A stretch of 64,000 nt of DNA, from positions 62,001 through 126,000 of the forward strand of contig JACKQL020000015.1 in assembly GCA_018296165.2 (NCBI GenBank). Direction: 5' to 3'. Both the position numbers and the translations under genes were made by a program. Shown piece by piece: positions 13,384 to 51,899 of the stretch. This stretch comes from Termitomyces sp. T153 (lineage: Eukaryota > Basidiomycota > Agaricomycetes > Agaricales > Lyophyllaceae). A model generated the notes under the pieces. That model was given only the letters and a program-made list of their open reading frames with translations, was not told the origin of the DNA and made no database searches. How positions within the stretch are numbered: the first letter of the stretch is position 1; the number at the start of each line of letters is the position of its first letter.

Positions 13384-13582
<199 letters not shown>

Positions 13583-15476: not shown

Positions 15477-16032
15477 TGTCAAGGGATGTCTCAGTTCCCC
15501 TCTGTGCTGTTCTCCCTCCTTATGGTTTTCCTTTCTTCTCTTTTGCTTTCCCTGTCTTCTGGTCTTAGTTCCAGCCCTCAGGCTGCACTGGTGCTCTGTC
15601 TGTAATTCCAACAAGTGTCACTTCTTCCAATGGCCTCTTACCAGACCCCTGGACTGTTTCCTGTATTCCAGGCCTACCACTGATTGTAGGCCTCCCATCT
15701 TTGGAGCACAGGTACTTTTGACCAAGGGCTATCTTTTGGTTATATTTGTATGTGGTCATGTGCAGGAAGTCTGGAGATCAAGGCCATTTACAATAAATTT
15801 CCACCTTTTGATTGGATTCCAGATTTAGTTGTTGTTGGGTGTTGTTTCCAGAAGCTCTAGAGTAAATTTTCTGAACATTGGCATTGGGGATCCTGAAACT
15901 TGTTCTCATTGGTTCTCTCTATGCCAGGTGAGTAATTAGAACTCTAGAACTTCTTGTAAATACTGAATAAACTTTGGATCTCCCTCTGCCAGTTGTGTGA
16001 TTGAGCCACAGCCTGTAGAGGTCACCCTCACA
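15477..16032 (+). mobile_element. Family F LTR (candidate 5' LTR of plus-strand gypsy relic)
   Basis: It starts TGTCAAGGGATGTC and ends GAGGTCACCCTCACA, 556 bp. It is full-length compared with the solo LTRs at 42474-43086 and 52388-52941, with which it shares the pyrimidine-rich U3. The 5 bp on either side (GTCCT and GCAGA) differ, so it is not a simple solo LTR. It directly precedes a plus-strand gag, so a 5' LTR is the natural reading, although the 3' LTR at 20729 has a different U3. Confidence 0.75.
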
Positions 16033-19163: not shown

Positions 19164-20717
19164 TTGTTAGAGACATTTGAAGAGGGAAATGAGAGGGTGC
19201 ACAGGAGGATGCAGTGGCTCAGGCAGCACAGACCCTACAAGCTCAATAGGCAAGTGGAGTCAACAGTGCATGCAGATGAGTGGGGTCTTCAGGATGGGCT
19301 CCTGACCTTTAGAAGATGCATTCATGTGCCTAACATTTCAGAACTTTGCTGGTGCATTGTAGAACAACATTATAACTCTTAGGTAGCCAGACAACCTAGA
19401 AGGTGGAAGATGCTAGAGCTGGTATCCCAGAACTATTGGTGGCCATAGATCTCCCAATATGTAGGCACCTACACTAGCACCTGTAATCTTTGTCTCCACA
19501 CCAAGCCTCACCATCAAGCACCCATGGGCCAGCTCTACCCACTTCCTATTCTAGCTGCTTGCTAAAGTGTTGCATTGGTGGATTTCATTGTGGAACTCCC
19601 AGATGCTCATGGATATGATGCAGTGATGGTAGAGGTAGACTTCTATAGTTAACAAGCCTATTTCATCCCTACCCACATGACATGCTCTGCCTTAGGAGCA
19701 GCTAGTCTGTATCAGAAGAATGTCCGGAAGCTCCATGGTCTGTAAAATGGGTATGTCTCTGATTAAGGCCCCTAGTTTGTGGCAGAGTTTATTCAGGAAC
19801 TGTACCACCTGCTTGGAGTGAAGCTCCATACCACCACAGCTTATCACCCTCAGTCAGATGGGCAGACAGAACATGTTAATCAGGAATTGGAACAGTATCT
19901 TCACCTTTTTTGTAATGAGAGGCAGGATGATTAGGATGAGCTCCTGCCAGATGCTGAGTTCCAATACAACAACTATGTTCACTCTTTCACACAGATAACT
20001 CCATTCTTTCTGGACACTGGTAGGCACTCCTGCATGGAATTTGAACCTTGGGCACACCCCTCTGAGAATGACTCTGTAAATGAGTTTGTGGTCAGAATGA
20101 AGAGGGCACAGGAGGAGACAAAGGCTGCATTGATGAAGGCCAAGGATGACATGGCATGCTACTATGACTGTTGTCAGACACCAGCTCTAGATTACAAGCT
20201 AGAAGACCATGTGTACTTGGATAGCTCATATATTAAGACAATGAGGCCATCTCAAAAATTGTCACATTGTCATTTTGGCTCCTTTGTAGTGGAGAAGAAG
20301 GTGGGGCCTTTAGCATACTGACTTAAACTCTCAGCAGGCCTATGCCAATTGCACATAGTCTTCAATGTTGTCAAACTATTTCCAGCCCCAGAGAATTCAA
20401 TCCCCAGCCATCACCTTAAGCCCCCCCCCCCTCCACCAGTTCTAGTTGATAATGAGGAGGAGTATGAAGTGGAGGAAATTTTGGATAGCAGAATATTCCA
20501 AGAAAAGTTGCAGTTCAAGATGAAATGGAAGGAATATGGTATTGAAGACATCTTTTGGGAACCACAGGCTAATGTACATACACCAACCCTGGTTAGGGAC
20601 TTCTACTGTAGGCATCCCAATGCTCCTAAAGCCATTTGGGGCATTTATCCTGTCTCAACAGCTGATCAGGCAATTCAGGACTTCTTCTACCTAGTGTGTC
20701 AAAACATCACATGCTAA
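19164..20717 (+). pseudogene. Ty3/gypsy integrase with chromodomain, plus strand
   Basis: The zinc-binding part (CNLCLHTKPHHQAPMGQLYP near 19,480), a core Asp in VDFIVELPDAHG (about 19,580), and TTAYHPQSDGQTEHVNQELE (about 19,835, with the core Glu nearby) identify the integrase. The C-terminal chromodomain lies at about 20,450-20,610 (EYEVEEILDSRI, FKMKWKEYGIEDIFWEP). A run of ten C lies at 20,420-20,430. At least five stops disable it. The chromodomain would direct insertion to heterochromatin, in keeping with the nested island here. Confidence 0.85.
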
Positions 20718-20728
20718 AAAGGAGGTGA

Positions 20729-21131
20729 TATCAGGGAACTGCCAATGCACATGCTTGGCTTGGTCATGTGTTTGGTCACATGATCAGTTGCCATGTGCAT
20801 TCTGCACAGAACCCACATGGCAAGATGTGCACATATTTGGCAAGGTCATGTGAATGCATGTGTTTTGTCATGTGTTTGGTCACATGATCAGTTGCTATGT
20901 GCATTCTGTGCAGAACCCACATGGCAAGGTATGCACATGTTTGGCAAAGTCATGTGACCAGAGTAATTTTTCCAAACCCTGGCATTAGAAATTCTCAGAC
21001 TTGTTCTCTTTGGATCTTCCTCTGCCAGGTGTGTAGTCCTACTTGTAGACATTGTACTGTGCTGAATAGACTTTGGATCTCCTTTTGCCAGTTGTGTGAC
21101 TGAGCCACAGCCTCCAGAGGTTGCCCTTACA
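20729..21131 (+). mobile_element. Family F LTR with internal 104-bp tandem duplication (3' LTR)
   Basis: It follows a purine-rich tract (AAAAAGGAGGTGA) and starts TATCAGGG, best read as TGTCAGGG with one change. It ends CAGAGGTTGCCCTTACA. The U3 contains two consecutive copies of a 104-bp unit starting at 20764 and 20868 (each begins TCATGTGTTTGGTCACATGA). This U3 is unlike the pyrimidine-rich U3 of the LTR at 15477, whereas the last ~180 bp match. Confidence 0.85.
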
Positions 21132-23265
21132 ATTGCCCCCATATCTGGCATATCCCCCTTTGAGTATCAAGTGATGCCCTTGAACAACTAACTCCCTTGC
21201 TCCCTTCAATATTTGCAGGCAACCTTCTCCTCAACATGAACAACAATTTTGCACAGTAGGACAACAGCCCAACCTGTTCAACTTCTTGAGGAATCCACTG
21301 AAATACACCTGCTGTATCTCAGAACAATTCTAAGAACACTTGCTCTTACCCAATAACTCTACCACTTGCTGCTCACTGGCCCAAGAACCTCTCTGAAATA
21401 CAGCCTTAAACTCCACTACTCCAGGGTCAACTTAATCTTGGCACCCCTGCTAAGCAACCAATGGGTACTTAAGAAAGCCTCTTTAAGCTAAGCAGAATGA
21501 ATCCTGCCACTCAGTAGTAATCTCCATTAAACATTTACATGTCATAGAAGGTAAATCCCAGTCCAGACCCCCTTTCTTGCCCAGCACAATCTCTGATGCA
21601 ACCCCACCAACAAGCCAACCCCCCAATCCACCCCTTTACACTGCCTCTGGACTCTTAGTTCCTGCTCTGAAAAGAATGAATTGACAAAACATACTTTTAG
21701 ACCCCTTCTTCTACTCAGCACTGTCTCTGGAGACAACCCCATCAACAAGCCAACATTCAACCAGCCCCCCATGCTAACTCTGGATCATTAGCTCCTACTC
21801 TGAAAGAAGATATACACCATAGAGCTCACCTCCAGACCAACTTCGCATGCACCATAACCTCAAAAAGTAACTCTGCCAAGCTAGTGCTCCACCAACCCTT
21901 GTGCCATTTCCTGACTGCTGACTCCACTCTGGGAAGGGACAAATACACTGCTGGACCTTTCCAATACAACTCTTAATGCAACTTTACCAATGAGCCAGCA
22001 GCTAACCCACTCCTTGCACTACCCCCAGACCACTGGATTCTTACTCCCAGAAAGAACAAACCCATGGAACAGCAACCCCAAACTCCTCCCTTGCTCAATA
22101 CAGCAGCCAGAACAACTCTGCTAAGAATCTGCCAACTAGCCAATGCTCATGCTACAAGAATCCACCAACCAACTAGCACTCACATCAACTCCAAACTCCT
22201 GGCTCCTATCCCAGGAAGGACAACCTAAGAACAGCAACTCCAAACCCCTTCCCACTCTGCACCTCACTAGAAGCAACTACATCAAGAATCATCTACCAAT
22301 CAACCTCTGTGCTATCTCTAGACTACCAACCCCTATTCAAGAGGGATGAACTCATGCTCTAGACTACAAACATGCTTGTCCTGACAAATCTTGGCAGCAT
22401 TGCAAGCCCCAAGGATGCCAGAAATATATAAGACTCTCCTACTTGCTTCTGGACTTATCCTTGGCAAGGAATAAGAAGGAATGTCATATAGCATATTCAA
22501 ACCTGCAAACTCCAACTCTGGACCAAGGAAACCCACTGAGACTGGTCACCTTGGAATTCTGCTGCCCCACCACCAATACTTTAGAGTGCAGCAAACCCTT
22601 AACCAAGTATGTTCCTAACAGAACACAAAACTCTGGAGTGCAGCAAACTCCTAATCAAGCATATTTCCAATAAAATGCAATACTCTGGAGTTCAGCAAAC
22701 TCCTATCCAATCATGCCTTTGCCAAAACAAAAACCTCTGGATACTCTCCACTCTTCAAATCAATTCACCAACCCCCTTATACTCAGAGATCAACAGATTG
22801 CAAGGATGGGTGGACTAAACTTTGAGAAAGTATCTCTGCTCCTATGCTAACTAACTAATAGCTGGTATGTAAAATGGTTCCCTACTAAGTCCACTATGAC
22901 AACAGCTCCAACCCTGGAGCCCTCCCTCATTATGCTGCCAAGGACTCCCATCTTTGGCCTACTCTGCCCTCTAAGGATGACTTCCACTCCATTGCCCCTA
23001 CAGTCATCAAGAGACCTCCACCCCCCTTTCTCAACTCCTCTGGGACAAAATCAACACCACTGCCAAGCATACTTGAAGCACTCTCACTCTTCAGCTGGAC
23101 CTTCAGCAACCCTGCCCAACTCAACTAACGTCACTCCAAGATCTAGAGAGTTCTTCTCAAGCCCAATCACAAATGCTTGACCCAACCCCAAGCTTGAAGA
23201 AACTCCACTCATAATCTCAGTCTGACCTCTTAAGAAGCACACTCCAGAACAACACCCCACCTATT
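21132..23265. other. C/A-rich, CG-free block of unknown origin
   Basis: About 2.1 kb dominated by short recurring phrases (CAACTCC, ACTCTGGA). One phrase, 'ctctggagt(g/t)cagcaaac' and variants, occurs three times near 22,580-22,710. No reading frame shows a recognisable domain and no LTR ends were found. By position it should correspond to pol of the older family A element whose 3' end lies at 23,270-25,896, but I see no pol motif. It may be a deletion derivative, a non-autonomous internal region or another inserted repeat. Confidence 0.4.
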
Positions 23266-23599: not shown

Positions 23600-25450
23600 T
23601 CATCTCCTCACCCTCTTTGAAGCTCCCCTCTCCACTTCTCTGACCTCCAGATCCATCTCCATCTGTACCCTCACCACAGCCAACACCTGTATAAGTCCAA
23701 ACAGTTCCTCCCCCACATCTGCTGCCACTCCCCACCACAACTCTGGGGCCACTACATTATGCTACTAGTGCCCTACCAGCAGTCACCTCAGCCTCACCAT
23801 TCTCTGGTCCAACTCCAGAGGATGGTCCATGGGCATCTGTGCCAACCTGTTCTAGATCAATGCAAATGCGCAGAGGCCCTATCCATGAGGACTTGGTGCT
23901 TTCAGACCCAATCTGCCTCAAGCTTGTTAGTAGAAGCCAGAGAGAAGAAGAAGACACTTATGCAAAATCTCTGCATGCTCTAAGGCTGCCTTGTTTACCA
24001 GCCACTCCTCCCACCACCTCCTAGCCTCTGCCTCTGCTCATAACAAACTCCCTTTCATCAGACTCTGCCATTCCTCTGCTTCCTCTATAGACTGTGCCTT
24101 TAACTATGTCAAGCACTCTTAGAGACCCCATACCTCCAACACCCTCACTGTGGCCATCTGCACTGCTGTGTTATAATCCTGCTGTAGCATATCCCTCTCT
24201 CTTTTTGCTATGTCCTGATCCTCTCTCACTCTTTGAAGCTCTTTCTCTTGCATTATCAATATCCTTAAAAATTTCTCCACTTGTCAATGAAGGAACATTT
24301 CAGTGATTGAGAGCACAGGCTCAGAAGACCTTGATAGATGCCCTAGCAGCATGCTCAAGCTAGAGGAGAACATATGAGGCCCAGGAGGGCCTGCCATTGA
24401 TTCCTGGCCTCATGATCACTTGCTGGGCCCTGCCTCTGGTAGCAGGGAGGCCCTCCACTTTCTCTTGTTGCATGACATTAGAGCCTACTCCCTCTGCCCA
24501 CTATGTGGGGGCCCCACCTTCTCTGCTAGCTGCCCTGCATTCTCCTTGTTCTCCAAATCAGAGCCCCAGCCTGACACTCTGGCCTTCCAACTCTCACCCA
24601 ACTGCTCTCTCACTCAGCCCTCCTCCCATTCCTGCTCTATGGCAATGCAGGCCACATGCCACTCCAGCAAAACCAGACACTTCTTGTGCCTTGCACAGCA
24701 TGGGAGGCAAACTGAAGTATCATGGCAGGACCCTGCCAAAGGTTTGTCAAACTCACATGGTTCTTCTTGCCAAGCACAGAGGATGCACTGGAACAACTAA
24801 TTAGCAAACACTACAAAAAAGGCTAAGAACTCACTAGAGCCTCATTCTGGCACCACTCCAGGGTCAGAGGACTCCATGCCCACTCCAGCACCCCTGCAAA
24901 CATCTCCAGCATCACTTGTGCCTGTAGAATTCTCTTCACCTCTAGAATAATGTGGACAATCCCTACCTTAAAACTAAGCCTTGTGGAATGACCTGGGGCA
25001 GTTAAGAATGAATGGCCAGCAGGCTCTGACTCCCTCACACAAGAGCTCTGGAGGAGCTCACCACTGCCAAGAATAACTCTATCAAAGCTCAATCAGCAAC
25101 TGGCAGTGCAATAAATCCACCTTCCTATAGTTCTGCTGCTGGTCAAACTCTCTCTGCTAACACTCATATTCTGCCCACATGGCCATGTAGTTGTTGTTAA
25201 AGGGGGGTGGTTAATGAGGGAGATGGTGACAAAGATGCTACAAAAGTCATGGAAAGAAATGAGGAACACTAGAGTATGTCCCACCTCCCTTTAAAGTTTT
25301 AGGAAGCACTTCTTGATGGATGACAATCACACTTCAACTTTGTTCCCCATACTGCCACCACTTGCTGCAGTTTGATCAATATTGCTCAGGCTTTGATTTT
25401 CATGCTCTCCATTCATTCCTGACTCATGCCCCACATCTCAAGAGTCTCAA
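23600..25450 (-). pseudogene. Antisense zinc-cluster gene of the older family A element
   Basis: Read on the minus strand, opposite to the orientation of its element's 3' LTR (25468-25896, plus). The cysteine module CILCAWQEEPC ... CLPCCARHKKC at about 24,790-24,680 has the same spacing (C-x2-C-x6-C twice, 15 residues between) as the plus-strand gene in the young element. Upstream, near 24,850-24,890, the phrase FAGVLEWAWSPLTLEWCQ matches FAEAAEQARGPLTLE. Downstream, about 23,860-23,600, MPMDHPLELDQ, LLVGH and WWGVAADVGEELFG match MPRDLPLELGQ, LLVGH and WWEVAMDVAEPLLG; the stop is at 23600-23602. Several in-frame stops disable this copy. The function of the protein is not known. Confidence 0.65.
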
Positions 25451-25467
25451 TGTTAAAGAGAGGGTGA

Positions 25468-25896
25468 TGTCATGACCCACTTCCAGAACCCTGGACCTTG
25501 TTTTCAGCCACCTTGCTTCCTCAGAATTCATTCCCAACTCCTCCTTTGACTCCCCCAACCTTTGTTCATCTATGGCACCCACTCCAGATAATTCCAATGC
25601 TTCTCCAGCAACCTCCAATGGGCTCCTGGCTAACTCCAATGCCTTTCTCACAGCATTCAACACTTCTCCTGCCTCTCCTGAGCCCCTGAAACCCTCCCCC
25701 ACTGTTCCTAACACTAGCATACATCACTAGTTTGTTACCTTAATTGATCCAACTAGCTCCAGAGCATCACAAAGACTCCAGGATGACCCATGTCCCCAAC
25801 TGATCCCATCAGTATATCACTGTGGCCTACTCCTTAATCACAACTGACACCTGCTAGCTCCATGTGCCTCCAATGAGCCCTACTACCTAACCTGTT
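25468..25896 (+). mobile_element. Older family A 3' LTR, left part (interrupted)
   Basis: It starts TGTCATGACCCACTTCC and is preceded by a purine-rich tract (AAGAGAGGGTGA, about 25,456-25,467), so it is the 3' LTR of a plus-oriented element lying to its left. It stops at CTGTT, the target site of the young element, and resumes with the duplicated CTGTT at 37883. Joined to 37883-38615 it is about 1,160 bp, close to the 1,146-bp solo LTR at 27271-28416. Confidence 0.88.
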
Positions 25897-26853
25897 TGTC
25901 AGGTTCCACTGACGACGGGGGCTCAGCTACACTGGCAAATCCTTACTAGGCAGACATGATGTCCTGCACTTATAACCAAGTGTCTGGGATGGGTGTGGAG
26001 GGGAGGGACTTGCAAGGGGGAGCTAGGGGGGGGCGGTCCGAGCAAGTCCGGAGTGGTTTGGGGACATCTAAGACCAAGTGTATTAGACATTGGACCTGGA
26101 TGGGCGTTGGAACAAGTTCATGGGCGCGCAAATAGAATGCAGGGTAAGCAGAGGCTTCATGATTGATGGGGGTGGAGCCAGAGTTTGGCGGGAGATCACC
26201 AAGGCGTGATGAGTTCCTGGGCCAAGTGGGGAGTGAGGTTCAGAGTTGTCATAAGAATGTTCAGGTCGTAACACATGCATGGGGTTCATACTGATGTTGG
26301 AGAAGAAAGGAACTTAGAAAGACAAAGGAAATATACACAGTTGAGACAAGATGGAGACAAGGTGAGATGAGACAGAGAAAAGAGATAGATTCAAAACTAA
26401 AAATAAAAACAGTGACAAGACAAAGGATGAGACATAAGAAACCAGTAAATGCAATATCAAGACTAAAGTACCAGGGGTTACTCTACGACTGATATACCTA
26501 CTACTGAGTGGTTCCGGAGAGCAGAGGATATGGCAGCAGGCTTGACAGAATTGCACAGAGTCGACAGTTGTCAGGTGCAATCTTGGAGCAGGCTGTGGTG
26601 ACATTCTGATGGGATCAGTTAGAAAGCGGATTGTTCTGGGGTTGGGGGAAGCCTCAGGAGTCCAGAGGAATTCAGGGGATGCATCAACTGCTGTGGAGAA
26701 GGCGTTGGAGTTGTTTAAGGAGCTGTCAGGGTTTGCCGAGGAAGTGTCAGAGTTGCCTGAAGTGGGCGCAGAGGGTGGGCGAGAGTTGGGGAGTTTGGTG
26801 GAGTGTTGGGGGGGCTGGGAGCAGTGTCAGGGTCTAGGGAGTGGGTCGTGACA
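25897..26853 (-). repeat. 3' LTR of the family A element
   Basis: 957 bp with short inverted ends TGTCA/TGACA. It matches 36927-37882 along its whole length. Differences between the two are mostly C/T or G/A at places where one or other copy has CG. Confidence 0.95.
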
Positions 26854-26919
26854 TCACCCCCCCTTCAGCGTTGAGACCCTTGAGATGCGGGGCACAGTTC
26901 AGGAATTGGTGCGGCATAA

Positions 26920-27265
26920 GAATTGAAGTCAAGCAATATTGATCAGACCACAGTAGCGGCAGCAGCATGGGAAACGAAGTCAAAGCATGGCCGCTGCTCC
27001 TCAGGGGGTTCTTTCCTAGTCATTGAAAAGGGTCAGATGTACTCTGGGGTTCCCAAACTTTCCCAATATTGTCTTCTGTGTATTTTCCAGCAGCATCCAT
27101 CCCCATCAGCACATACTTCAACTTCTTCCTTGGAGGACTCTGAGGGTTGGCAAGACCATAGGTGGGTGCAGGCAATATACCGTAGTTGTAAGTACCATCT
27201 CTTGCTCATCGTGGCCAGAGTGCTGAATAAGTCCCATCAGAGTTGTCGGTGGCAGTGGTGGGCCC
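26920..27265 (+). other. Possible 5' part of the antisense gene in the young element
   Basis: The stretch from about 26,925 (AGCAATATTGATCAGACC) is conserved with the old element near 25,360-25,390 on the opposite strand. It lies upstream of the cysteine-module exons of the antisense gene. Candidate acceptor TTTTCCAG near 27,090 and donors TAAGT near 27,190 and 27,230 suggest splicing, but I cannot fix exon borders or a start codon. A later solo LTR (27271-28416) separates this part from the remainder. Confidence 0.35.
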
Positions 27266-27270
27266 CTCAG

Positions 27271-28416
27271 TGTCATGACCCATTCCCTGGACCCCTGTAC
27301 ATCACCCAATAAAACTCCATCCCCCCAAAACCTCCCCCAACACTCCGTCAAACTTCCCCAGCACTCCGTGCCTACTCCAGCTAACTCCGACACATTCTCA
27401 GCTAACTCTGACAGCCCCCTGGCCAACTCTGACATCTTCCCTGCAGCTGCCAGTGCTTTTCCCCTGGACCTCCTGAGCCCCTGGGACCACTCCCCCACTG
27501 TGCCTAACTCTGTTACACATCATCAACTCAACACCCTGGCTCCTCTGACTTACCCTGAAACATCATGACAACCTCGGAACAGACCGCATCAACAATTGAT
27601 CCCACCAACATATCAACGTGGCCTGCCCTCTGGTCATAACCAACACCTGCTGACTCCGTCAAGCTCCACCAAGCCCTGCCACCATAGCCGATGTTCCCAG
27701 AGCTCTTCAGTAGTCAGTATATAAGACGTAGAGTAGCTCTTCTTACTCTAGTCTTGAGGTTACTTATCTACCTACTGGCCTTTCCTGATGTGTTTCTGAT
27801 TGTTCTTCTTGTGTTTTGTGTTCCATGTCTTGTTTTCCTTATTATCAGTCTCCCAGTCTTATCTTGTCTCTATTCTGTTATCATTTCATTATCATTCCAT
27901 GTCTCTGCCTGAATCTATTCTCATTCCCATCTCATCTCCATCCCACTTTGTTCGACTCCGTCTCATCTCATTTGATTCTGTCTATCATGTTCAAGTCCTC
28001 TCAACCATAATGTCCTCACGAACTCCATGATTACAATTATGAACCCCAATGCTCTTTTACCAACTCCAGACCCCACTACATGCTTGGCTCCAAACCCCAT
28101 CAATCCCCATTGATCCCCCATCAGAACTCCAGCTCCACTCCTGTCATTCATGTAGCCTCTGCCTCCTCCACACCTGCAATACTCACACACAGACTTATGC
28201 CTGAACCCCGCCAAGCCTGTCCCCCTTCCCTGCAACTCATCCTCTACTCCTCCAGACCTCCTCAGACTTGCTCAGATCAATTTCCACTAACTATCCTCAC
28301 AAGTCCCCAGTGTTTGGAACACCTCTGAGTGCCTGGTTGTCAGTGCAGAGAATCACATCCACCTAGTAAGGACTTGCCCAGTGTAGCTGAGCCCCCATGG
28401 TCAGTGGAACCTGACA
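27271..28416 (+). mobile_element. Family A solo LTR inside the young element, opposite orientation
   Basis: 1,146 bp, TGTCATGACCCATTCC at the start and GTGGAACCTGACA at the end, flanked by a perfect 5-bp duplication CTCAG (27266-27270 and 28417-28421). Its end is the reverse complement of the start of the host element's LTR (GTGTAGCTGAGCCCCC). No internal sequence remains, so it is a product of LTR-LTR recombination after insertion. It must be later than the 25897-37882 element. Confidence 0.93.
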
Positions 28417-28429
28417 CTCAGAGCCTTTG

Positions 28430-29905
28430 TTGGGGGAGGCTCCAGCACAGTTGGTGGGGAAAGTGGTCCCTGCTTCTCATTTCAGGCCTGGTGTTGCCTC
28501 CGGGGTGGTCTGCCCCATCCCTATGGGGTCAAGAGTCGTGCAGGCAGACGTGACACTGGAGTACTTTGCAGAGGCTGCGGAGCAAGCAAGAGGTCCCCTG
28601 ACGTTAGAGTAGTGTCAGGCGGTGGCCCCAGTGTGTCATTGGCATGTCCCTTCCTTATCAAGCTAACCCACATTTCTAGTGCGTGTCCTGTACCTGGCAG
28701 GGTGAACAGTGCGAATTTGAGGAGCCCATGCCAGGAGTGTGGCAGGACATGTCAGTGTGTTTCCCATGTTGCTCACAGCATAAGAAGTGCTCTGTCACTC
28801 TGAATTGGCATGCCACTTGCATTGCGGCAGAGCAGGGATGAGACCATGAGTGGGTTGCTGTGCAGTTGGAGGAGGGTCGGAGGGGTAGGGTCTCAGGGAG
28901 GGGTTCCAGAGTAGAGGGGGGAGTTGGCACGAGGCAGCCCCTGATGAAGGTTGGGCCCCTGCAGGGTGGGTGGAGGGAGGGGGCCCCCATGATGTGCAAC
29001 AAGGGTAAACAGAGGGCGTCCCCCTTGCCAGAGGTGGGGCCTAGCAAGTGGGCATTGGGGGAGCCAGCAATGGTGGGCCCTCCAGATCCCACGGTGTATT
29101 CCCCGACTTCTGGGGCCTTGGTTGAGAAGTCTGTGGGAGGGTCATGGTTGGTTGCTGAGGCTTTTCTGTGGTATTGGGTGGAGGAGTTGGAGAGGTTGTT
29201 GGCCACATGTGGGGCGGAAGTTTGTAGGGTGGGGGAGGAGAGGAACAGGCTTTGAAGGGAACTGGATGGGGCTCAGAAGAAATGGGACTTGGTGCTTAGG
29301 GATAAGGGCATTGCCATGGGAACAGCCATGGAGCAACTGTCGCAGCTTCAAGAGCTGTGAGTGCATATGGGGCCATTGGAGGTGCAGGTGGAGGTGGTGG
29401 GGCAACAATCAGAGGGGTTGGAGATGCGGGGAACTCAGTGGGGGTCCAGTGTAGAAGTAACCTGAGCGACGGTAGAGAGGGTGCAGCAGCAGGAAGAGTG
29501 GCTTGCCAACAAGGTGGCCTCAGGGCGGTGGGGAGTGCTTCATAAGTCCTCCCTTCATCTCCTGTTTACTATGAGCTGACATTTGATTTCGCAGACTGGG
29601 CCAGAGAGCACTGCATCCTCCTCAACAGAGCGTCAGCAGCACTGGAGTCCATCCATGACAAGTTGGTGAGGATGCCCAGGGATCTCCCGCTGGAGTTGGG
29701 GCAGGGGGTCACGCAGATGGGGCATCTGCTGGTGGGACATCGGCGGAGGGTGACAGCGGACTCTGGAGCATGGTGGGAGGTGGCAATGGATGTGGCAGAG
29801 CCACTTCTGGGGCATCCCAAAGTTCTGGCAATGGTAGTAGCGCAGCTGGAGGTGGATCTGGTGGGGAGGATAGCAGAGGTGGATTTAGAGGGGGAGAGGG
29901 AGTAG
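28430..29905 (+). pseudogene. Antisense gene of the family A element: Zn2Cys6-like cysteine modules plus helical C-terminus
   Basis: Read opposite to gag-pol. Upstream exon: about 28,540-28,615 (VTLEYFAEAAEQARGPLTLE). Cysteine exon: starts at 28680 after acceptor TTTCTAG, with CVSCTWQGEQC, a 15-residue linker, then CFPCCSQHKKC. This gives six cysteines in two C-x2-C-x6-C modules, the arrangement of a Gal4-type binuclear cluster with an unusually long linker. A glycine/proline-rich linker and a helical part (VEELERLLATCGAEVCRVG) follow. The last exon is 29595-29905 after acceptor TTTCGCAG and ends EVDLEGERE. In-frame TGA codons at 28839 and 29253 fit old CGA codons; the expected last donor reads ATAAGT (29542). 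The old element holds a diverged copy with the same protein-level conservation. DNA binding is inference. Confidence 0.65.
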
Positions 29906-30215
29906 GGGTTCTCTGGATTCTGGTTTCTCATTGCCCCACACTCCCCTATTTCTATATTTCTTCCTTGTAGCTTTTGTGAATATCGGACTTCTTGTACTTT
30001 TGCTGAGCATAAGAAGTTTTCAGAATGAGTAAGGGGCAGAGTAAGTGAAAACATGTAGGGGAGGTACTCGTGGGAGTTGAATCCCTGATAAATCCAGAGG
30101 CAGGGGTTATACCCACTGATGCCATCTGCACTTGCTAGTCCCGGGGGTCCCAGAGCTTGGTGGGGTGTTGTCAATGGAAGTCCTGGAGTTTGTTGGGGGC
30201 TCCATTGAGGTTTTT

Positions 30216-31643
30216 TCAGGGCTTCCACATGTCATCCTCAGGTCTGTAGCCCTTCCAGTGGACTAAGTACTGGGGTTGTCCACAGACCAAGCAGGAGTCA
30301 AGGATCTGGTTGACCTCGTAGTGGTACTTGTCCTCGACCTCAATGGGGGGTGGTTGGCTGGGGTGCTGGCCAGGGAAGGGGTCTGAGGCATGTTTTTTGA
30401 GGAGTTGAATGTGGAACATGGGGTGGAGGCCTTTCAAGCCCAGAGGTAGGTTGAGTTTGTAGGCATGCGTGGGGACCTTCTGGAGGACTTTGAAAGGACC
30501 AAGGTGTTTGTGGTCTAGTTTGATGGAGGGCCTCTGGGTCTTGAGGTTGCATTGATCAAGCCAAACCAAGGTGCTGGGGGGCCAGTTGGGGGTGGGATGA
30601 CGTCGGGCATCAGCATGTTTGGAGTAGGCTTGATTGGCGGTGTTGATCTCATCCCAGAGGAATTGGTGAAGGAATCAGAGGTCCTTGGCAACTTTGTGGG
30701 TGGCGTGGGAGGGGATGTCCTTCAGGGACAGGGTGAGTCAGGAGTTGTAGCCTTTGTTGGCATAGAAGCGGGAGACTCCAGTGGCAGAGTGGGGCATGTT
30801 GTTGTAGGTGAATTTGGTGAGGGGGAGTTCTGCACACCAGTCGTTCTGTAAATAGTTAACATGTAGGCAGAGGTACTGCTCCAGTGTCTGGTTCACTTGT
30901 TCTGTTTGTCCGTCGGTCTCTGGGTGATAGGTGGTGGAGAGGCTGGTTTTGATCTCAAGTGCCTTGCATAGCAATTGCCAAAAGTGGGATACAAACAGGG
31001 GTCTACAGTCGGAGATAATGTTGTCTGGGAGTCTGTGCTTGGAGAATACATGTTCAAGGAATAGTTTGGCAAACTCCAGAGCATTGTCAGTAGTGTGGCA
31101 GGGGATGAAGAGGGCTTGCTTGGTGAGGCAGTAAATGATGACGAGGATTGCATTGAAACCTTCAGAGTCAGGGAGTTTGATGATATGATCCATCAATAGG
31201 GAGGACCAGGGGCGGCGGCTGATGGGGAGGGGTTTCAATAATCTGTGGGGGCGGTGACAGGGTGCCTTGGCCTGGAGGCAAGGTTTGCAGGCCCTTACAT
31301 ATTGTGTGATGTCCTTCTTCATTCCTGGCCAAAAGTAAGTCTGGGAGATGAGTTGAAGGGTCTTACAAATTCCTGGGTGCCCCCAGAGCTTATGGTCATG
31401 ATGCTGCCGGAGTATGTCAAGGCAGATGGACTTGTGGTCCAGAGCATAAATTTGTCCACTCCGGAGCAGGAGGCAGTGGTCCGGAGACAGCAAAAAGGGA
31501 TTCTCAGCACTCGACTCATTGGGGTTGTTGTGGGGGTCATGCTGGGTGAAGAAGGAGTCTGGGGGTGAATTTCTGATTTGCTGGAGGATTCCTTCTTCAT
31601 TTAAAATCAGCACAGCATGTAGATGTTCAGGGGGGATTACCAC
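30216..31643 (-). pseudogene. Family A integrase with chromodomain
   Basis: The first frame (31643 to 30738) is open over 301 codons. Zinc-binding HHCC region: HHDHKLWGHPGICKTLQL and VRACKPCLQAK. Catalytic core: MDHIIKLPDSEG (first Asp), NIISDCRPLFVSHFWQ (second Asp), TTYHPETDGQTEQVN (Glu). After one frame break near 30,740-30,570 the C-terminal integrase domain continues ([27 protein letters not shown]), then the chromodomain ([24 protein letters not shown]) ends at 30216. All three catalytic acidic residues are present. It joins DNA ends of the element to the host genome; the chromodomain points to silent chromatin as target. Confidence 0.9.
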
Positions 31644-33128
31644 TCAATGGTTGAATGCATTCCATTTGGCTTTGAATGACTTCTTTGGATACACATTGGA
31701 CCTTTGAGTGAGGGCATCGGTCTTTGTGCTGAGTTGCCCAGGGTGGTAGTGGATGGTGAAGTCATACTCCGAGAGGGTTTTGGACCATTGGGCTTGGCAG
31801 CGGCTGAGCTGTTTCATGGTCATGAAGTATTGCAGGTTGTTGTGATCAGAGTATACTTGGATGCAGTGCAGGGACCCCTTGAGGTAGGCCTGCCACTGAC
31901 AGAAGGCTTCAACAATTGCAAGGAGTTCTTTGTCATAGATGTTGTAGTTGAGTTCTGCTGGAATCATTGATTGGGTGTAGAAGGCAACAGGACAGAGATC
32001 TTTGCCCCCCAAGTCTGACTGGGAGAGTATCCCAGTGGTAGCATAGTTGGAGGCATCACATTTGAGCATGATTGGCAGGGAGGGGTCAAAATGGTGGAGG
32101 ACCAGAGCAGAGGTGAAGGCCTTCTTCAGGAGGAGGAATATGCTCTGGCACTTGCTGTCCCAATCCCAAGGGGTGTCCTTCTGCGTGAGTTGGTTGAGGG
32201 GTTTGGTAATCCCAGAGTAGTTGTCGATGAAACAGCAATAAAAGTTAGCAAACCCCAGGAATGACTGTACCTCCTTGACATTCCATGGTGGGGGCCAGTT
32301 GAGTATTGCGTCAACCTTGGTGGGGTCCATGCGCATGCTGTTGGGGGTGACAATGACTCCAAGATATTCAACCTCCATCATGTGGAAGAGCATTTCTTGG
32401 GTTTGGCATGAAGGTGGTACTCTCAGAGTTGTTCTAAGATGCAGCAGATGTGCTCTGGATGCTCTGTCAGCAAATTCAAGTAGATCAGGATGTTGTCCAG
32501 ATACACAATAACAAAAATGTCATTCATGTTGTGGAAGATGTTGTTCATGAAGTACTGGAAAGTGGCGGGGGAGTTAGTCATTCCAAAGGGCATTACGAGG
32601 TACTCAAAGAGGCCATAGTGGGTGCAAAAGGCGGTCTTCCATTCATGTTCTGGAGCAGAGGTCTATCTTTGTGTAAATCTTCGCACTGCGGAGATGATCA
32701 ACAAGGTCTCTGATCAAGGGGAGGAGATACCAGTTTTTTTCGGTGACTTTGTTGAGTCCCCGATAATCCACACAGAGTCAGAGTGACCCATCCTTCTTCT
32801 TGGTGAACAGAACTGGAGCGCCGGTGGCGGAGATTGACAGGCATATGAAGCTCTTGCCAAGCATGTTGTCAAGGTATTCTTTCAAGGCTTGGAGCTCAAT
32901 CTTGGACATGTTGTAGATCTTGCCAAACAGGGGTGAGGTGCCTTCTTTGAGGTCAATCTTGTGGTTGTAGGAGCAGTGCGAGGGAAGTTCTTTGGCACTC
33001 CCTTCAGAGAACACATCAGCAAACTCATGATACTCCGGGAGAACTACTTTGGATAGGATCTGTTCCTCCATCTTGCTCTCCAGCATAGTGGTCCCTGTGC
33101 GGAGGTGCTCCTTGGGTAGGGCTGGCAT
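31644..33128 (-). pseudogene. Family A reverse transcriptase-RNase H
   Basis: The N-terminal part (LPEYHEFADVFSEGSAKELP, near 33,040) and the RT fingers (VLFTKKKDGSL then a stop at 32,780) are followed by palm sequence in shifted frames ([14 protein letters not shown], near 32,760). The catalytic loop region near 32,500 reads only in a broken frame. From 32393 to 31644 the frame is open: VEYLGVIVTPNSMRMD, VQSFLGFANFYCCFI, and RNase H motifs LKCDASNYATTGILSQ, YDKELLAIVEAF, VYSDHNNLQYF, and HPGQLSTKTDALTQRS. Domain order and motifs are those of Metaviridae. The stop and frameshifts make it inactive. Confidence 0.9.
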
Positions 33129-33329
33129 GATTTGTAACTGGAAGGTGGGGGTGCTGTCTTTTAGAAGGCATGCAAAAGGGATGGCACCAATGATTTTAAT
33201 GTTGAGGTTTCCAGAGTCGACGGAGTTGGATGTCGGAGTGGTAGCAGAGTTGGTTGGGGGCTTTGAGCATCACTGGTTGGGGTACCGCGGGCCTTTGTAT
33301 TGATTCCGAGGTATGTTGGGAGGCAGCCG

Positions 33330-34300
33330 TCATAATGTGATTGAGGGTGACTGAGGCAGAGTGGCATTTCCTTCTTTGTCGGAGTTGTCATTGGAGGTTG
33401 AGGGACTCTGGGTTGCTCTGGAGGTACTGGCGCTGGAGTGGGAGATGTCAGAGTCCAAGATAGACTGGAGGTGGAGGGGGATGGTGGCCACTAAACTCAC
33501 TTTGGGGCCAGGGAATTGCATGGTGAGGTTCTTCCAGTTGATGTTGGAGTTGATGTCTTGCAGCCATGGGAGTCCAAGCATGATTGGAGTCGGCAGAGGT
33601 AGTTGGGTGACAAGGAGCTGGGCCTGAAACTGCAGGTCATTGTCAAGGGTGAGGGTGTTGTCATGGTATTGAGTGATTCTTGTCATGGCGGGGCTTCTGT
33701 TGAAGAGTTGGAGCTCAAGGAGTTTGTCGAGGTCATTGCACTGGAGGCCAAGTTGATTACTGACAAAGGTGCTGGAGGCACCACTGTCAATGAGGGCAGG
33801 GAATATCTTGGAAGAGTTGTCAAGTCAGACATTGATGATGAATGACCATGCAGATCTAGAGCGGAGCTGCGGGGGAGTCTGGAAGTGGTCGATTGTGGTC
33901 TTGGAGTTCTTGGAGGAGCGTGAGACATTGAAAAGTACCAGCCTGGAGTTGGTGGGGTTGTCCTGGTCAAGGCAGAGGGTGAGGCTGGGCCAGTCAACAT
34001 GGGGGTTGGTGGAATGGAGCCATGAGAATCCTAAGACAATGGAGGCGGAGGAGTGTAATTTTGTGATAAGTAGTTGGAGTTTTTGCTGTCGTCCATTGGC
34101 AAAGGTCATGGTTGTTTCTAGGCAGTGTGTGATGTCTCCTGCTGGGGTAGGGTCTCCATCAAAAAGTTTGAGGGGAATCAAGGTGGGGAGGCATCAGAGG
34201 GAGTGGGGAGCAAGCACTGCTAAGGATTCATCAATGAAGTTATCAGTGGCGCCACTGTTGACTAGTGTGGGGATGGGGTTGTCGGTGAAGGGGAGAGTGG
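33330..34300 (-). pseudogene. Family A protease region with two tandem retropepsin-like domains
   Basis: Two homologous units lie 157 codons apart in one frame. Unit 1: LVNSGATDNFIDES with Asn codon 34257-34259 where the catalytic Asp is expected, a later strand ITHCLETTMTFANGRQ, and SIVLGFSWLHSTNPHVDW. Unit 2: ALIDSGASSTFVSNQ with intact Asp codon 33786-33788, ITQYHDNTLTLDNDLQ, and PIMLGLPWLQDINSNINW. Each unit has the Asp-Ser-Gly loop and the ILG-like psi-loop strand of retropepsins. Retropepsins usually act as homodimers with one such unit per chain; here the two could pair within one chain. A TGA separates the units near 33,835, and another stop lies near 34,190. The protease would mature the Gag-Pol polyprotein. 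Confidence 0.75.
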
Positions 34301-34439
34301 TGCAGAGGAGAAGGTTGGTGGATGAGTGGGAGGGGAGGTGTACTGGGGGGCTGTCTGGGGCGAGTATTGTTGCGCAGAGAAGTGTGGCCAGGGCAGAGAA
34401 GACATCGGGGTCTGGTCCATGGTCTAGTGTGTCTTCAAG

Positions 34440-36899
34440 ACCTAAACTGCCGACTCATTTTCCATAAACTGGTAGTTATAGTCTTCTTCATCAATTGTCC
34501 ACATAGCATGTCCCATCACCACATAGGATGCACGCACCCTCCTTCCATCATTTCTCCTGTGTTTCCTCCGGCACATTGATCCATGGATTATCCCAAATCC
34601 TATTTGCGCATAAGGCTTCTTGGTTGTTGGCGGGGTTTGGAATGTCATCAGGGTCATTGGGGTTGGTGTCCAGGGGTTCCAGAGTTTCATGGAGGTCGGC
34701 GGCGTTTAGCTGGTTGTCCTGGGGGTCGATTGGTGCTGGTAGTTCCTTGGCCTGGGGGAAAATGGGGTGTGGAGTTGGCAGGGTTAGTGGGGATTGAGGA
34801 TCAAATGCTGTTGGTTGCTCTGGCCTGCCAGTTGGTGTTACTGGAGGCGTTCCAGGGGGTCCAGGGCACCATGTTTTTGCTGCAATCTTCCCAGTAATGT
34901 TGGTCAACCTGGGTAACAAGCGCCTTGTACCCATTGTAGGTGGTTTGCTTGGGTGCAAGGCAAAGGACATCCTTGATCCATTGAGGCAGGGCACGATGGA
35001 GGGCAAATTGGAGAGCGTTGTAGTTCCAGCCAGTCTTGTAGGCTTCCCATTTGAATTGTACAATAAAGGTCATGAAGCGTTTGTTGTTGCACATTCGGAG
35101 GTTGAAGAGATTTTCCTCCACCTCTGCTATGGTGTCAAAGACACCAAACTTACTCAAGAATTCCTGGGTGAAAGCAAGCCAATTGGAGAGCATGGAGTTG
35201 TTGGGATCAAACCAGAGTAGTGCAGTGTAATGATCAAAGGCAATACCCTGTAAATATGATGCAGCAAAGGCCACTCGTGAGCTCTCAAGTTGGAAGGTAA
35301 TTGGCTTCAATTGAAACATAGTCAGACACTGGGTTAGAAAAATTCGCCACTTCTGGGAGTCGTGGCCAGTGAAGGGTTTGGGCTTCTGAATGTCGAGCTT
35401 ACCCTCCTGGGCCAGTGCGTTGCAGGTATTGTCCTGTGGATTTTGAGCTTGGGGCGGGGGTCCGGCATTGTAGTAGTAATAGTAGTTGTTCCTGTTTCCA
35501 CGCTGGAGGGGAAAGTTGTCCATCACCGGGCCCCATCCTCCAGGGGGTCTGCCGTTGGGTGGCCCTCTGCCAGGGGTTTGGCCCACATTGCCCAGGGCAG
35601 GCCCTGGGGCCCATCGAGGGGGTCCTTCTGGAGTGGGGGGTCCAAAATAATTGGCGTTGGTGGGAGGGTTAGGCATTGAAGCAGGCAGGGGATGAGGATG
35701 GTTGGTAAGAAAGGGTGGTTGGGGTGCCCCGGGACCCATGCGCTGTTGCGGGGGGGCTGGGGCATTGGAATGGGGTGGAGGGGCATTGACATGAGAGGTG
35801 CAGAGGTTGAAGTGGGGGGGTTGGTCTTGTGGAGGTCTGTTGCATGGGGCGTGCTTGTTGGCGGGGTTACCAGGCTTGTCAATGTAGAAGAGAGTCCGGT
35901 TGTCGTCGTCGATGTGTGGGAGTGGCCATTGGGAGCGGGGTTCAGGGATGGTGGGCTGGTCCCAGGTTCAGAAGGCACTGGGGACGGAGTTGGCCCAGGG
36001 GCAAGCGGAGAGGGCCAAGATATGGGTGGCTGGTTGGTCGAACAATCCCCCTGTGGGGTTAAGGTTCCTCAAGATGCTGGAGGCCATATTAAGTTCTTCC
36101 TGCTGACAGGGAATGGAATGCGGGGCTTTGCTTCATGTTCCAATAGGCTCCTTGCATTGCACATGGCAGGAGCAGGTGGGGTCTAGAGGGTCTTCAAAGG
36201 GGCAGAAGTTTGGGCTGGTGTGGATTTCTTCAACCAATGCACAGAGCTCATTCCGTAAGTTATTGTCAATGTCCAGGGTGCCTTGCATAGTCTCCAGGAG
36301 ATTCCCTTGCAGATAGTGCTCATGGAAGTTGAGGAGTTGATCTGCCCAGACTTCCAGAGTCATGGAGGTGTCAGAGTAACCTAGGTTGGTGAGGAGGGTG
36401 CGGGTGCATCTTGTGAACTCCATAGAAGAGAGGTGGAGGAAGCAGAGGACTTTGTCACGCTGTTAGGCATAGGCTTTGACTCTTTGCTGCCTGGGAGAAG
36501 GAGGAGCTTGAGCGGGAAATGGCATATGAGGGGGGGAATAATTATTCATAGGCCCCAAAGGGGTTGGGGCTGCAGCAGGGACTGGGTACGCATAATAGTG
36601 GGCAGAGAGAAGGTAGGCAGGGTTAGGGGGTGCTGCGGAGTATCCTCCAGGGTACATACAGGGATTGTTGCCATCAGCAGAGAATGTAGGAGGGCGGTGC
36701 TAGCCCGGAGGTATCTCCTGGCTGATGGAAGGGGCGTAGAACACCTAGTTGGGGTCAGGAGTCCAGTGACAAGGAACGTACTGATCTGTGGGGGGGCCTG
36801 GGTAGAACAGAGTGTAGGGATTTTCTGGTACTGGTTGACTATAGACATTGGTTAGGTAGCTGGTGGGGTTGTATGTGGGGTTATACGCAGACATCAAGA
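34440..36899 (-). pseudogene. Family A Gag
   Basis: The likely start is MSAYNPTYNPTSYLTNVYSQ at about 36,897. A Tyr/Pro-rich N-terminus is interrupted by stops near 36,745, 36,700 and 36,465. A helical segment (36,423-36,133, WADQLLNFHEHYLQGNLLE) and a long Pro-rich linker follow. The conserved capsid-like domain (retrotransposon gag family) lies in the open frame 35739-34801, with KPFTGHDSQKWRIFLTQC, VAFAASYLQGIAFDHYTALL and FNLRMCNNKRFMTFIVQFK. After a TGA at 34801 the frame continues (DNPWINVPEETQEK) to a Cys-rich ACILCGDGTC near 34,530 in place of a canonical CCHC knuckle. Gag would form the particle. Confidence 0.85.
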
Positions 36900-36926
36900 A
36901 TGGGGTAAGGGGGAGTCTTGATATTA

Positions 36927-37882
36927 TGTTAGGTTCCACTGACAATGGGGGCTCAGCTACACTGGTGAATCCTTACTAGGTGGACGCAATGTCCTGTGCT
37001 TATAACCAAGCATCCAGGATGGGTGCAGAGGGGAGGGACTTGTGAGGAGGAGCTAGGGGGGGGTGGTCTGAGCAAGTCTGGAGTGGTTTGGGGATGTCTA
37101 AGACCAAGTGTATTAGACATTGGACCTGGACAGATGTTGAAACAAGTTTGTGGGCACACAAATAGAATGCAGGGTAAGCGGAGGCTTCATGATTGATGGA
37201 GGCAGAGCCCAAGTTTGGTGGGAGATCACCAAGGTGTGATGGGTTTCTGGGCTGAGTGGGGAGCGAGGTCTGGAGTTGTTGTAAGAATGTTCAGGTCATA
37301 ATGCATGCATGGGGTTTGTACTGATGTTGGAGAAGAAAGGAACTTAGGAAGACAAAGGAAATATACACAGTCAAGACAAGATGGAGACAAGGTGAGACAA
37401 GACAGAGAAAAGAGATAGATTCAAAACTAAAAATAGAAACAGTGATGAGACAAAGGACAAGACATAGGAAACCAGTAAATGCAATATCAAGACTAAAGTA
37501 CCAGGGGTTACTCTATGACTTATATACCTACTACTGGGTGGTTCCGGAGGGCAGAGGATATGGCAGCAGGCTCAATGGAACTGCGTGGAGTTGACAGTTG
37601 TCAGGTGTGATCTTGGAGTGGGCTGCAGTGACATTCTGATAGGATCAGTTGGAAAGCGGATTGTTCTGGGGTCGGGGGAAGCCTCAGGAGTTCAGGGGAA
37701 TTCAGGGGATGCATCAACTGCTGCAGAGAAGGCATTAGAGTTGATCAAGGAGCTGTCGGGGTTTGCCAAGAAAGTGTTGGAGTTGCCCAAAGTGGGCGTG
37801 GAGGGTGGGCAAGGGTTGGGGAGTTTGGTGGAGCATTGGGGGGCTGGGGGTGGTGTCAGGGTCTAGGGAGCGGGTCGTGACA
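36927..37882 (-). repeat. 5' LTR of the family A element
   Basis: 956 bp. It carries the promoter for the minus-strand element. It ends at the duplicated target site CTGTT (37883-37887). Compared with the left LTR, many CG sites here read TG or CA, and the reverse at fewer places. Confidence 0.95.
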
Positions 37883-38615
37883 CTGTTATTCCTGGAGATG
37901 TTCCAGTAGTCAGTATATAAGTCATAGAGTAGCATCCCATACTCTAGTCTTGATATTACCTGCCTTATGTGTTTCTGATTGTTTCTCTCTTGTGTTTTGT
38001 GTTCTCTCTATTATGTATTCTCTTCTCTTAGTCTCTCAGTCTTATCTCAGTCTCCCAGTCTTGTCTTGTCTCTATCTCCATTATTGTCTTGTTATCATTT
38101 TATATTTCTGCTTGTATTTATTTTTGTTCTTGTCTCAATCTTGCCTCGACTCCATCTTGTCTCATTTGACTCTGTTCCTCTTATTGTGTTCAAGTTCTTT
38201 AAAATCTTAATGCCATTATAAACTCCATGCTTACAATCATGAACCTTGAACATTTATAAGCCAACTCTAGATCTTGCTAATTGCTTGGCCCTAAGACTCA
38301 TCAACATCTATTGATCTCCCATCAAACTCCAGCCCTGCTCCCATCACTTGCATAGCCTCTGTTTGCCCCACACTTTCAGTACTTGCTTCTGGACTTGTGC
38401 CTGACATCCTTTCAAGTTCAAATCTTCTCTGTATCTTGTCTTAGACTTCCCTGGACCATTCCAGACTTGTTTGGACTACTCTCCCTTGCTTGTCCTCATA
38501 AGTATCTGAAGTCTGGACTTCTTCCAAGTCCCAGGTTATCAGTGCAGGACATTGCATCTGTCTAGTAAGGACCTGCCTAGTGTAGCTGAGCTCTCATAGT
38601 CAGCAGAACCTGACA
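37883..38615 (+). mobile_element. Older family A 3' LTR, right part
   Basis: It continues the LTR broken at 25896: CAGTAGTCAGTATATAAG here matches the same phrase inside the solo LTR near 27,711. It ends GCAGAACCTGACA. To its right the sequence GCCCCTTCCACATGGCC is the interior of a family F LTR, so the older element itself landed in a family F LTR. Confidence 0.88.
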
Positions 38616-39021
38616 GCCCCTTCCACATGGCCTCTTACTAGCCTTCTGGATTGTTTCCTATATTCCAGGCCTACTGCTCATTATAGGCCTCCCATCTTTA
38701 GACCACATTAACCAAGGCCTATCTTTTGGTCTTATTGGTAGGTGGTTACATGCTGGGAGTTTGGAGATTGAGGCCATTTACAATGGATTTCCACTTTTTG
38801 ATTGGACTCCAGATTTGGTTGTTGTTGGGTGTTTTTTTCCAGAAGCTCTAGAGTAAATTTTTCCAAACACTAGCATTGGGGATCCTTAGACTTGTTCTCT
38901 TTGGATCTCCTTCTGCCAAGTAAGTAGCTAGAACTCTAGAACTTGTAGATACTAAATAGACTTTGGATCTCCCTCTGCTAGTTGTGTGATTGAGCCACAG
39001 CCTCCAGAGGTTGCCCTTACA
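38616..39021 (+). mobile_element. Family F LTR, right part (5' part displaced by the older family A element)
   Basis: From GCCCCTTCCACATGGCC to CAGAGGTTGCCCTTACA it matches the distal two thirds of the solo LTR at 52388-52941 (reverse complement). Its 5' third should lie left of the older family A element's 5' end, but I did not find it in this window. Confidence 0.85.
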
Positions 39022-39485
39022 ACATGCCACCTTGTACTAAATATTGATATGCTCATCATCTGGGCATCCCTCTGCCATACTATTAATATGATCCATGAGA
39101 GAGAGGTGAAGTCTGTCACAGAAGGTGAGGCAGATTTGTAAACCATATGAATAGCCAGCCTGTTTAACTAAGGCATGGAAGGAATCAATGTACTCATTCA
39201 GTGACTGCTTCCTTTGACCATACAGGGTTCAGTCTTGAAGAGAAAGAGCTGTGGTCTTGGTGGGATCAAGGAGAAAGAACTCAGCTCAAAACTCCTTCTC
39301 AACCTCCATCTAGCCAGAAAAACTCTCAACTTCTCCAGGGCATTAAAAAATGTGCAGTGTGTAGGTTGAGGCTTGGCCTGCCATTATGTAAGAGAGAACC
39401 CAGGCAATTTTGAAGGTGTCAGAGGCAAAGGCTTCACCACTCAACTGAATATAGGTGATGCAAGACTGGAGGAAACATTCCCCAA
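39022..39485 (-). pseudogene. Gypsy Gag fragment, minus strand
   Basis: It is the reverse-complement counterpart of 16,560-16,970 in the plus-strand family F relic: the shared phrases include 'gaaagagctgtggtcttg' and CATGAGAGAGAGGTGAAG. It ends near 39,485, where copia reverse transcriptase sequence begins. No open frame remains. Confidence 0.7.
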
Positions 39486-51890: not shown

Positions 51891-51899
51891 ACACATAAT

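Follow-up and report, generated by a model that had tools for sequence, protein, structure and literature searches.

A conserved antisense gene with a zinc-cluster-like module in Ty3/gypsy elements of Termitomyces

Do fungal retrotransposons carry accessory genes on the strand opposite to gag-pol, and what might such a gene do for its element? This question is raised by a 64,000-nucleotide stretch of the Termitomyces sp. T153 genome (GenBank assembly GCA_018296165.2, 72.4 Mb in 307 contigs; contig JACKQL020000015.1, positions 62,001 to 126,000), referred to here as the window. A decayed but complete Ty3/gypsy chromovirus occupies positions 25897-37882 of the window on the minus strand, and a gene on the plus strand lies between pol and the 3' long terminal repeat (LTR) of that element. 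A first-pass annotation had proposed that a fungal chromovirus carries an accessory gene here that is antisense, spliced and conserved, a proposal supported by position, introns and selection. Copies of the gene are discussed below as lineages A (to which the window copy belongs), B and C, and the coordinates of all window features are collected in Table 1.

The structure of the gene is best seen in an intact relative, the element at locus L029, whose LTRs differ at 7 of 989 sites (99.3% identical), which is bordered by the duplication AGTTC and which shares 99.5% identity over 5.4 kb with locus L030. Reverse transcriptase (RVT_1), RNase H, integrase and Chromo domains were all detected in this element, and its antisense gene comprises 514 codons in four exons (2622-2745, 2797-3035, 3085-3955 and 4007-4317) separated by three short introns, each with a GTGAGT donor. 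Annotated proteins P0014, P0021 and P0001 of other Termitomyces genomes have the identical three intron joins. Measured against this model, the first-pass annotation had correctly drawn two exon starts (28680 and 29595) as well as the conserved C-terminal exon, and two more exons lie upstream, from approximately 27066. It had also located the gene properly between pol and the 3' LTR; the LTR near 28430, which it took for that 3' LTR, is a solo LTR, and the real 3' LTR is a separate feature (Table 1), so the element boundaries it implied are not supported. The antisense gene itself is real, and the window copy is a pseudogene, because it has lost its start codon, contains five in-frame stops and has its second exon split by the solo LTR. 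The exon-3 donor of this copy reads ATAAGT.

Judged from its substitution pattern, the antisense protein sequence is kept under purifying selection. The samples consisted of 21 sequences from lineage A (the window copy included), 12 from lineage B and 13 from lineage C; they were drawn from a far larger number, mostly at places that scored best or were least broken. Once inserted, copies decay, which drives the ratio of nonsynonymous to synonymous rates (dN/dS) towards 1, and the intervals given in brackets are codon bootstraps that ignore the shared history of related copies. Between lineages A and B, dN/dS in exon 3 was 0.61 (0.50-0.74) for transitions and 0.25 (0.17-0.35) for transversions, below 1 as the first-pass annotation would have it for a functional antisense frame. 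Four of the five alternative frames gave values of 1.0-2.9; the fifth, on the opposite strand with coinciding third positions, gave 0.68 and 0.41, and every one of the 33 sequences had stops in each of these five frames. The proposed frame was free of stops in 11/12 lineage-B and 1/21 lineage-A sequences. In exon 4 the corresponding ratios were 0.39 (0.29-0.54) and 0.49 (0.12-3.08). When A and B were taken together, columns with transversions in exons 3 and 4 fell 29/22/66 on codon positions 1/2/3 (p 6e-7), and no significant bias was found in the introns (17/19/28), the spacer (18/15/19) or exons 1 and 2 (54/48/66). Within lineage B, the whole coding sequence yielded 0.65 for transitions and 0.30 (0.11-0.79) for transversions among 11 sequences, with the indel-bearing locus L039 set aside there and kept in the A-B and B-C comparisons; B against C gave 0.68 and 0.29 (0.20-0.43) over 135 codons. 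Lineages A and B are 59-78% identical across the four exons and 40-58% identical across the introns; the corresponding figures are 65% for the spacer and 78% for pol. The pol gene could not serve as a positive control for the position test, as its lineage-A stretch lacks a codon-position signal and is probably misaligned or too decayed.

Other codings of the same DNA were considered and rejected. Sense-strand (env-like) coding of exon 3 is contradicted by stops in all three minus frames of 33/33 sequences, and chance open frames are ruled out by the frame controls and codon-position tests. Exon 4 alone does not exclude sense coding, since other frames are stop-free in some copies (for example, one minus frame in 9 of 33). 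In exon 3 of lineage C, the proposed frame is stop-free in 8 of 13 sequences and one minus frame in 10 of 13.

The encoded protein begins with a Ser/Pro-rich part, followed by the motif GPPTLEWC, a cysteine module, a stretch resembling a nuclear localization signal (NLS; KGKRRASPSPEAGPSKRARG, recognized by eye), then a long helix and finally a C-terminal part that is conserved. The two C-x2-C-x6-C modules, 15 residues apart, that the first-pass annotation had described are present, giving C-x2-C-x6-C-x15-C-x2-C-x6-C. Both modules were found in 46 of 150 retrieved proteins, and the 2-6-15-2-6 spacing is exact in every one of the 46; one or both modules are missing from the remaining 104, many of which are partial or differing gene models. 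Protein P0142 keeps the exact spacing at 36% identity to P0128. Eight cysteines and one histidine are invariant in the module region of a seven-sequence alignment, and each of the eight Cys codons is preserved in 19-21 of the 21 sequences from lineage A and in all 12 from lineage B; in lineage C, the seven of these codons that were checked read Cys in 11-13 of 13. This spacing, together with the purifying selection, indicates that the module and its frame are more than chance. Fungal Zn2Cys6 clusters follow the pattern C-x2-C-x6-C, a linker of 5-12 residues, and C-x2-C-x6..8-C. The half spacing is matched in 46/46 proteins, and the linker here measures 15. In addition, the halves are swapped relative to the Zn_clus profile (PF00172): module 1 aligns to profile positions 13-35 or 20-35 and module 2 to positions 2-14 or, also when searched on its own, 2-15, a correspondence also seen in whole proteins, with P0033 as a weak exception (residues 101-124 to positions 2-25, E 6.9). 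The label 'Zn2Cys6-like' from the first-pass annotation therefore holds only loosely: the module resembles a zinc cluster, with a profile score below the cut-off, swapped halves, a 15-residue linker and conservation of eight cysteines plus a histidine. Structure prediction reached a confidence (pLDDT) of 47.9 from a single sequence and 62.6 with 49 rows; the AlphaFold2 model from 49 sequences contains a confident helix at residues 255-331 of P0128 and moderately confident C-terminal helices. The best match of a sequence profile in the PDB was the coiled-coil region of Mediator subunit 4 (E 0.023), and a search of NCBIfam returned nothing below E 0.2.

The favored explanation, to which a probability of roughly 55% is assigned, is that the element encodes, through this antisense gene, a nuclear regulator of its own that can be compared with the products of antisense genes in Grande, Retand and Boty. 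The gene would be transcribed independently, from a promoter in the conserved block upstream of it or from the 3' LTR, and its introns would survive because new elements are copied from the sense RNA alone, from which splicing cannot remove them; three introns on the uncopied strand fit such independent transcription. With its zinc module, NLS-like basic stretch, coiled coil and helical partner domain, the protein would be a nuclear dimeric DNA-binding factor acting in trans on the LTR or leader DNA of its own family, where it may tune expression of the element or its escape from silencing. A role in regulation or silencing had been suggested by the first-pass annotation, and we likewise infer it from these features. 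Several results weigh against this explanation. The 62-residue module scores 19.3 bits (E 0.0012) against Zn_clus, below the curated cut-off of 21, and whole proteins score lower than the module; module 1 alone and protein P0130 gave no Zn_clus match at all. The zinc region is undefined in the AlphaFold2 model, for which no fold match was found in the PDB (best E 2.6). Just a single lineage-A sequence among 21 has an exon 3 without stops, the test of transversions by codon position reaches significance neither in A nor in B taken singly (p 0.098 and 0.14), nor in exons 1 and 2 (p 0.22), and within lineage C the ratios over 125 exon-3 codons (0.83 and 0.59, interval 0.19-3.44) are indistinguishable from 1.

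Some of these results would suit a selected protein with a structural or replication job, such as nucleic-acid chaperoning, integration targeting or nuclear entry, and no part in transcriptional regulation. Eight conserved cysteines and a histidine are compatible with other metal-binding folds, and the swapped halves and the lack of a fold match also speak for this reading. However, fungal regulators show a similar succession of zinc module, basic stretch and long helix, and a structural protein acting in trans would presumably be encoded more easily in sense with gag-pol. This alternative survives best and is considered unlikely rather than implausible. A poorer prospect is that the antisense RNA, not the protein, matters, by forming double-stranded RNA with the genomic RNA and thereby limiting copy number. 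An antisense overlap is inherent in the arrangement, and such an effect is discussed for plant elements in the accessible text of PMC7264820; the excess of third-position changes, dN/dS below 1 in the protein frame and the higher conservation of exons than introns all speak for the protein, making an RNA-based role quite improbable.

The arrangement in the rest of the genome bears on whether the gene belongs to the element at all. Genome searches scored the best candidates of each list (40 of 687, 150 of 1199, 99 of 2428, 150 of 2745, 103 of 3477 and 94 of 1988), and a place that is unpaired among scored candidates does not mean that its neighbor is absent from the genome. With the 421-residue frame as query, 46 of the best 99 gene places (of 2428 candidates) were without a stop. 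A scored pol lay on the opposite strand in 88 of these 99 places, at a distance of 183-937 bp (median 237), and the remaining 11 had no partner among the best 150 of 2745 pol candidates. Conversely, the antisense gene was found beside 115 of the 150 best-scored pol places (68 of the first 75), 35 had no gene partner among the scored candidates, and in none of the 150 was the gene in sense with pol. It is very unlikely, therefore, that this is a captured host gene that hitchhikes without a function for the element: most lineage-A copies are broken and selection within lineage C was not shown, as that explanation would have it, but the selection tests between A, B and C argue against it, as does pol beside 88 of 99 best-scored places. 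The first-pass annotation had named host loci carrying the exons without the element as one observation that would count against it. The pairing with pol goes against such loci, and no element-free host copy was noticed among the best-scored candidates, in lists that were not designed to find a host paralogue. Relatives of the protein in three database searches were all from Termitomyces (12 of 12, at least 120 of 135, and 41 of 41 among the matches listed), and the chromovirus lineage with this accessory gene has so far been seen only in that genus.

If the gene encodes a regulator with its own transcript, a promoter would be expected upstream, and the conserved block between the polypurine tract and the start codon would be the natural place for one. 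A core, ATATTGATCA, occurs in 20 of 23 aligned upstream rows, four further loci without a match having been dropped and the row of locus L017 representing a nested lineage-B copy. Part of the conservation of this block may instead serve plus-strand priming. A separate observation in the same region is a perfect palindrome of 18 bp, TTGATCAATATTGATCAA, located upstream of the gene in those lineage-B copies that were inspected (for example, contig C1, 958482-958499). It occurs at 144 genomic places compared to 0 in the reversed control, and its full form was seen in lineage-B sequences only, with lineage-A and lineage-C rows sharing the core ATATTGATCA alone. The palindrome was considered as an operator and stays a lead.

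Lineage C carries the gene without detectable gag-pol. It was found with P0132 as query, which produced 234 matches from the best 103 of 3477 candidates scored, the membership of each individual match being unchecked. In the element on contig C125, LTRs of 94.6% identity enclose an interior of approximately 5.2 kb in which the gene is antisense, and a second copy, on C8, has the same gag-pol-less interior up to the 5' LTR. Pieces of gag, protease and pol gave no tblastn match (E up to 0.01) in either copy or beside the lineage-C copy in the window; the same search returned pol at the control locus L018, and the gag and protease queries lacked a positive control. An origin of lineage C by loss of gag-pol is suggested by four short DNA matches to pol that lie in collinear order (64-70% over 70-112 columns); a fifth match, 46 columns long, breaks this order. 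As in other non-autonomous elements, LTRs, leader and polypurine tract are kept, and both the tract and the leader that follows the 5' LTR are similar to their counterparts in the autonomous element, as would be expected of a non-autonomous partner. This gag-pol-less lineage probably borrows the enzymes of the autonomous element and retains the antisense gene, and such retention is expected of a gene that helps its carrier. A two-part system is thus conceivable, in which the chromovirus supplies enzymes and a gag-pol-less parasite keeps its cis ends along with its own antisense, spliced regulator or anti-silencer of the swapped-half zinc-cluster type; we hold this extension tentatively and think it doubtful. 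The older copy of opposite orientation in the window, which the first-pass annotation took to encode the same protein, does encode the same kind of protein, in a lineage-C element without detectable gag-pol (61% identity to the C125 element over 3.1 kb); a single family for both window copies is not supported.

The window chromovirus has its LTRs, the 5-bp duplication CTGTT, gag, RNase H, integrase and Chromo, and its pol aligns piecewise to that of the intact relative. It had been called young in the first-pass annotation, a description at odds with LTRs of 87.8% identity. The LTR pair differs by 113 transitions (90 in CpG context), three transversions and one gap, as expected from deamination of methylated CpG. 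The observed/expected ratio of CpG is 0.26 in the window element compared to 1.07 in the L029 stretch, which suggests that old copies were probably once methylated. This contrast is what would favor a protein that works against silencing by countering methylation at the element's CpG sites, an identity that is highly improbable in view of family searches that returned nothing of that type. Around the element, another repeat family occurs in both orientations (15477-16035, 20960-21132, 38616-39024, 42474-43089 and 52388-52942) and adjoins more pol pieces (for example, pol-like 17671-20630, 14232-15474 and 51829-53368), so that at least one further Ty3/gypsy lineage appears to be nested here. 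Two tandem 94-bp copies, 91% alike, lie at 20760-20957, and a long simple repeat at 13414-13582 recurs at the edge of L029 (98-147).

Table 1. Features of the chromovirus, its antisense gene and the older lineage-C copy (window coordinates).
Feature	Position	Strand	Remarks
Older lineage-C copy of the same gene	23600..25467	-	decayed, with stops; zinc exon from 24787; C-terminal exon near 23.8 kb
LTR of older copy, first part	25468..25896	+	resumes beyond nested element at ~37888-38615
3' LTR	25897..26853	-	duplication CTGTT at 25892-25896
Polypurine tract	26854..26869	-	adjoins 3' LTR; GCTGAAGGGGGGGTGA on minus strand
Conserved non-coding block upstream of antisense gene, candidate promoter	26870..27065	+	75% identity to lineage C over 207 bp
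Antisense gene, exon 1	27066..27187	+	ATA where relatives have ATG
Antisense gene, exon 2, part one	27241..27270	+	ends in CTCAG
Solo LTR inside exon 2	27271..28416	+	duplication CTCAG; 85% identity to LTR of lineage-C element, contig C125
Antisense gene, exon 2, part two	28422..28630	+	one in-frame stop
Antisense gene, exon 3	28680..29541	+	cysteine module, NLS-like stretch, long-helix region; four in-frame stops
Antisense gene, exon 4	29595..29905	+	conserved helical C-terminus; stop codon 29903-29905
pol remnants	30216..33824	-	RNase H, integrase, SH3/chromodomain and protease-like pieces, with stops; protease match below Pfam cut-off
gag open frame	34804..35967	-	PF03732
5' LTR	36927..37882	-	duplication CTGTT at 37883-37887
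LTR of older copy, second part	37888..38615	+	

Accessory genes in antisense orientation have turned up in LTR elements that are unrelated to one another, in plants, in Botrytis and now in a basidiomycete. In the Termitomyces case, young intact copies are combined with a clear selection signal and a DNA-binding-like module, and the gag-pol-less lineage that keeps the gene is a natural experiment; the question of whether retrotransposons carry their own regulators thereby becomes testable. HBZ is a basic leucine zipper protein of the retrovirus HTLV; like the gene described here, it derives from an antisense retroelement gene proposed to regulate its element, and no homology is claimed. Antisense genes of the HBZ type are mentioned in the accessible text of PMC7264820 and PMC11963269. 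A close parallel by description is brtn, an antisense gene in the interval between pol and the 3' LTR of the Boty-like Ty3/gypsy elements of Botrytis cinerea (Zhao et al. 2011, as cited in PMC7264820, PMC8365987, PMC4227169 and PMC5987419). Both are fungal Ty3/gypsy elements with a chromodomain, and both have the extra gene at this place and in this orientation; the passages citing brtn, with which the comparison is one of description and not of sequence, make no mention of a zinc module, and Botrytis is an ascomycete, unlike the source of the relatives listed here, all from Termitomyces.

Among plant elements, 97% of recent Retand clusters bear antisense TRP28 reading frames, for which DNA binding is predicted and regulation proposed, according to the available parts of PMC11963269. 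Retand, however, is of a plant non-chromovirus lineage and carries a TRP28 domain (PF04195) in place of the cysteine module, and no TRP28 match was reported in domain searches of the Termitomyces proteins. The accessible text of PMC7264820 describes Grande gene23, RIRE2 and PvRetro13 as having antisense accessory genes in most copies, with a nuclear product and its own promoter for gene23. Those proteins and hosts are different, and expression was shown there, whereas the Termitomyces gene is known from sequence. The first-pass annotation was aware of plant precedents and of no zinc-cluster gene in fungal chromoviruses. Its second point agrees with the literature searched, from which subscription papers were mostly absent and in which no antisense zinc-cluster gene of a fungal LTR element was found, nor its swapped halves, this Termitomyces family or its gag-pol-less partner; the available text of a survey of fungal LTR elements (PMC3248453) does not mention antisense, zinc or an additional reading frame. 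A fungal antisense gene as such, brtn, is already in print. Antisense accessory genes are thus known, and the zinc-cluster form, the swapped halves and the gag-pol-less partner appear to be new. Compared to Gal4-type Zn2Cys6 proteins (PF00172), the Termitomyces protein shares two C-x2-C-x6-C halves, a basic second module and a coiled-coil-like helix downstream, and it differs in its swapped halves, 15-residue linker, score below the cut-off, two extra cysteines and histidine. Should the swapped halves prove to fold into a binuclear cluster, they would represent a new arrangement of a very common fungal DNA-binding domain.
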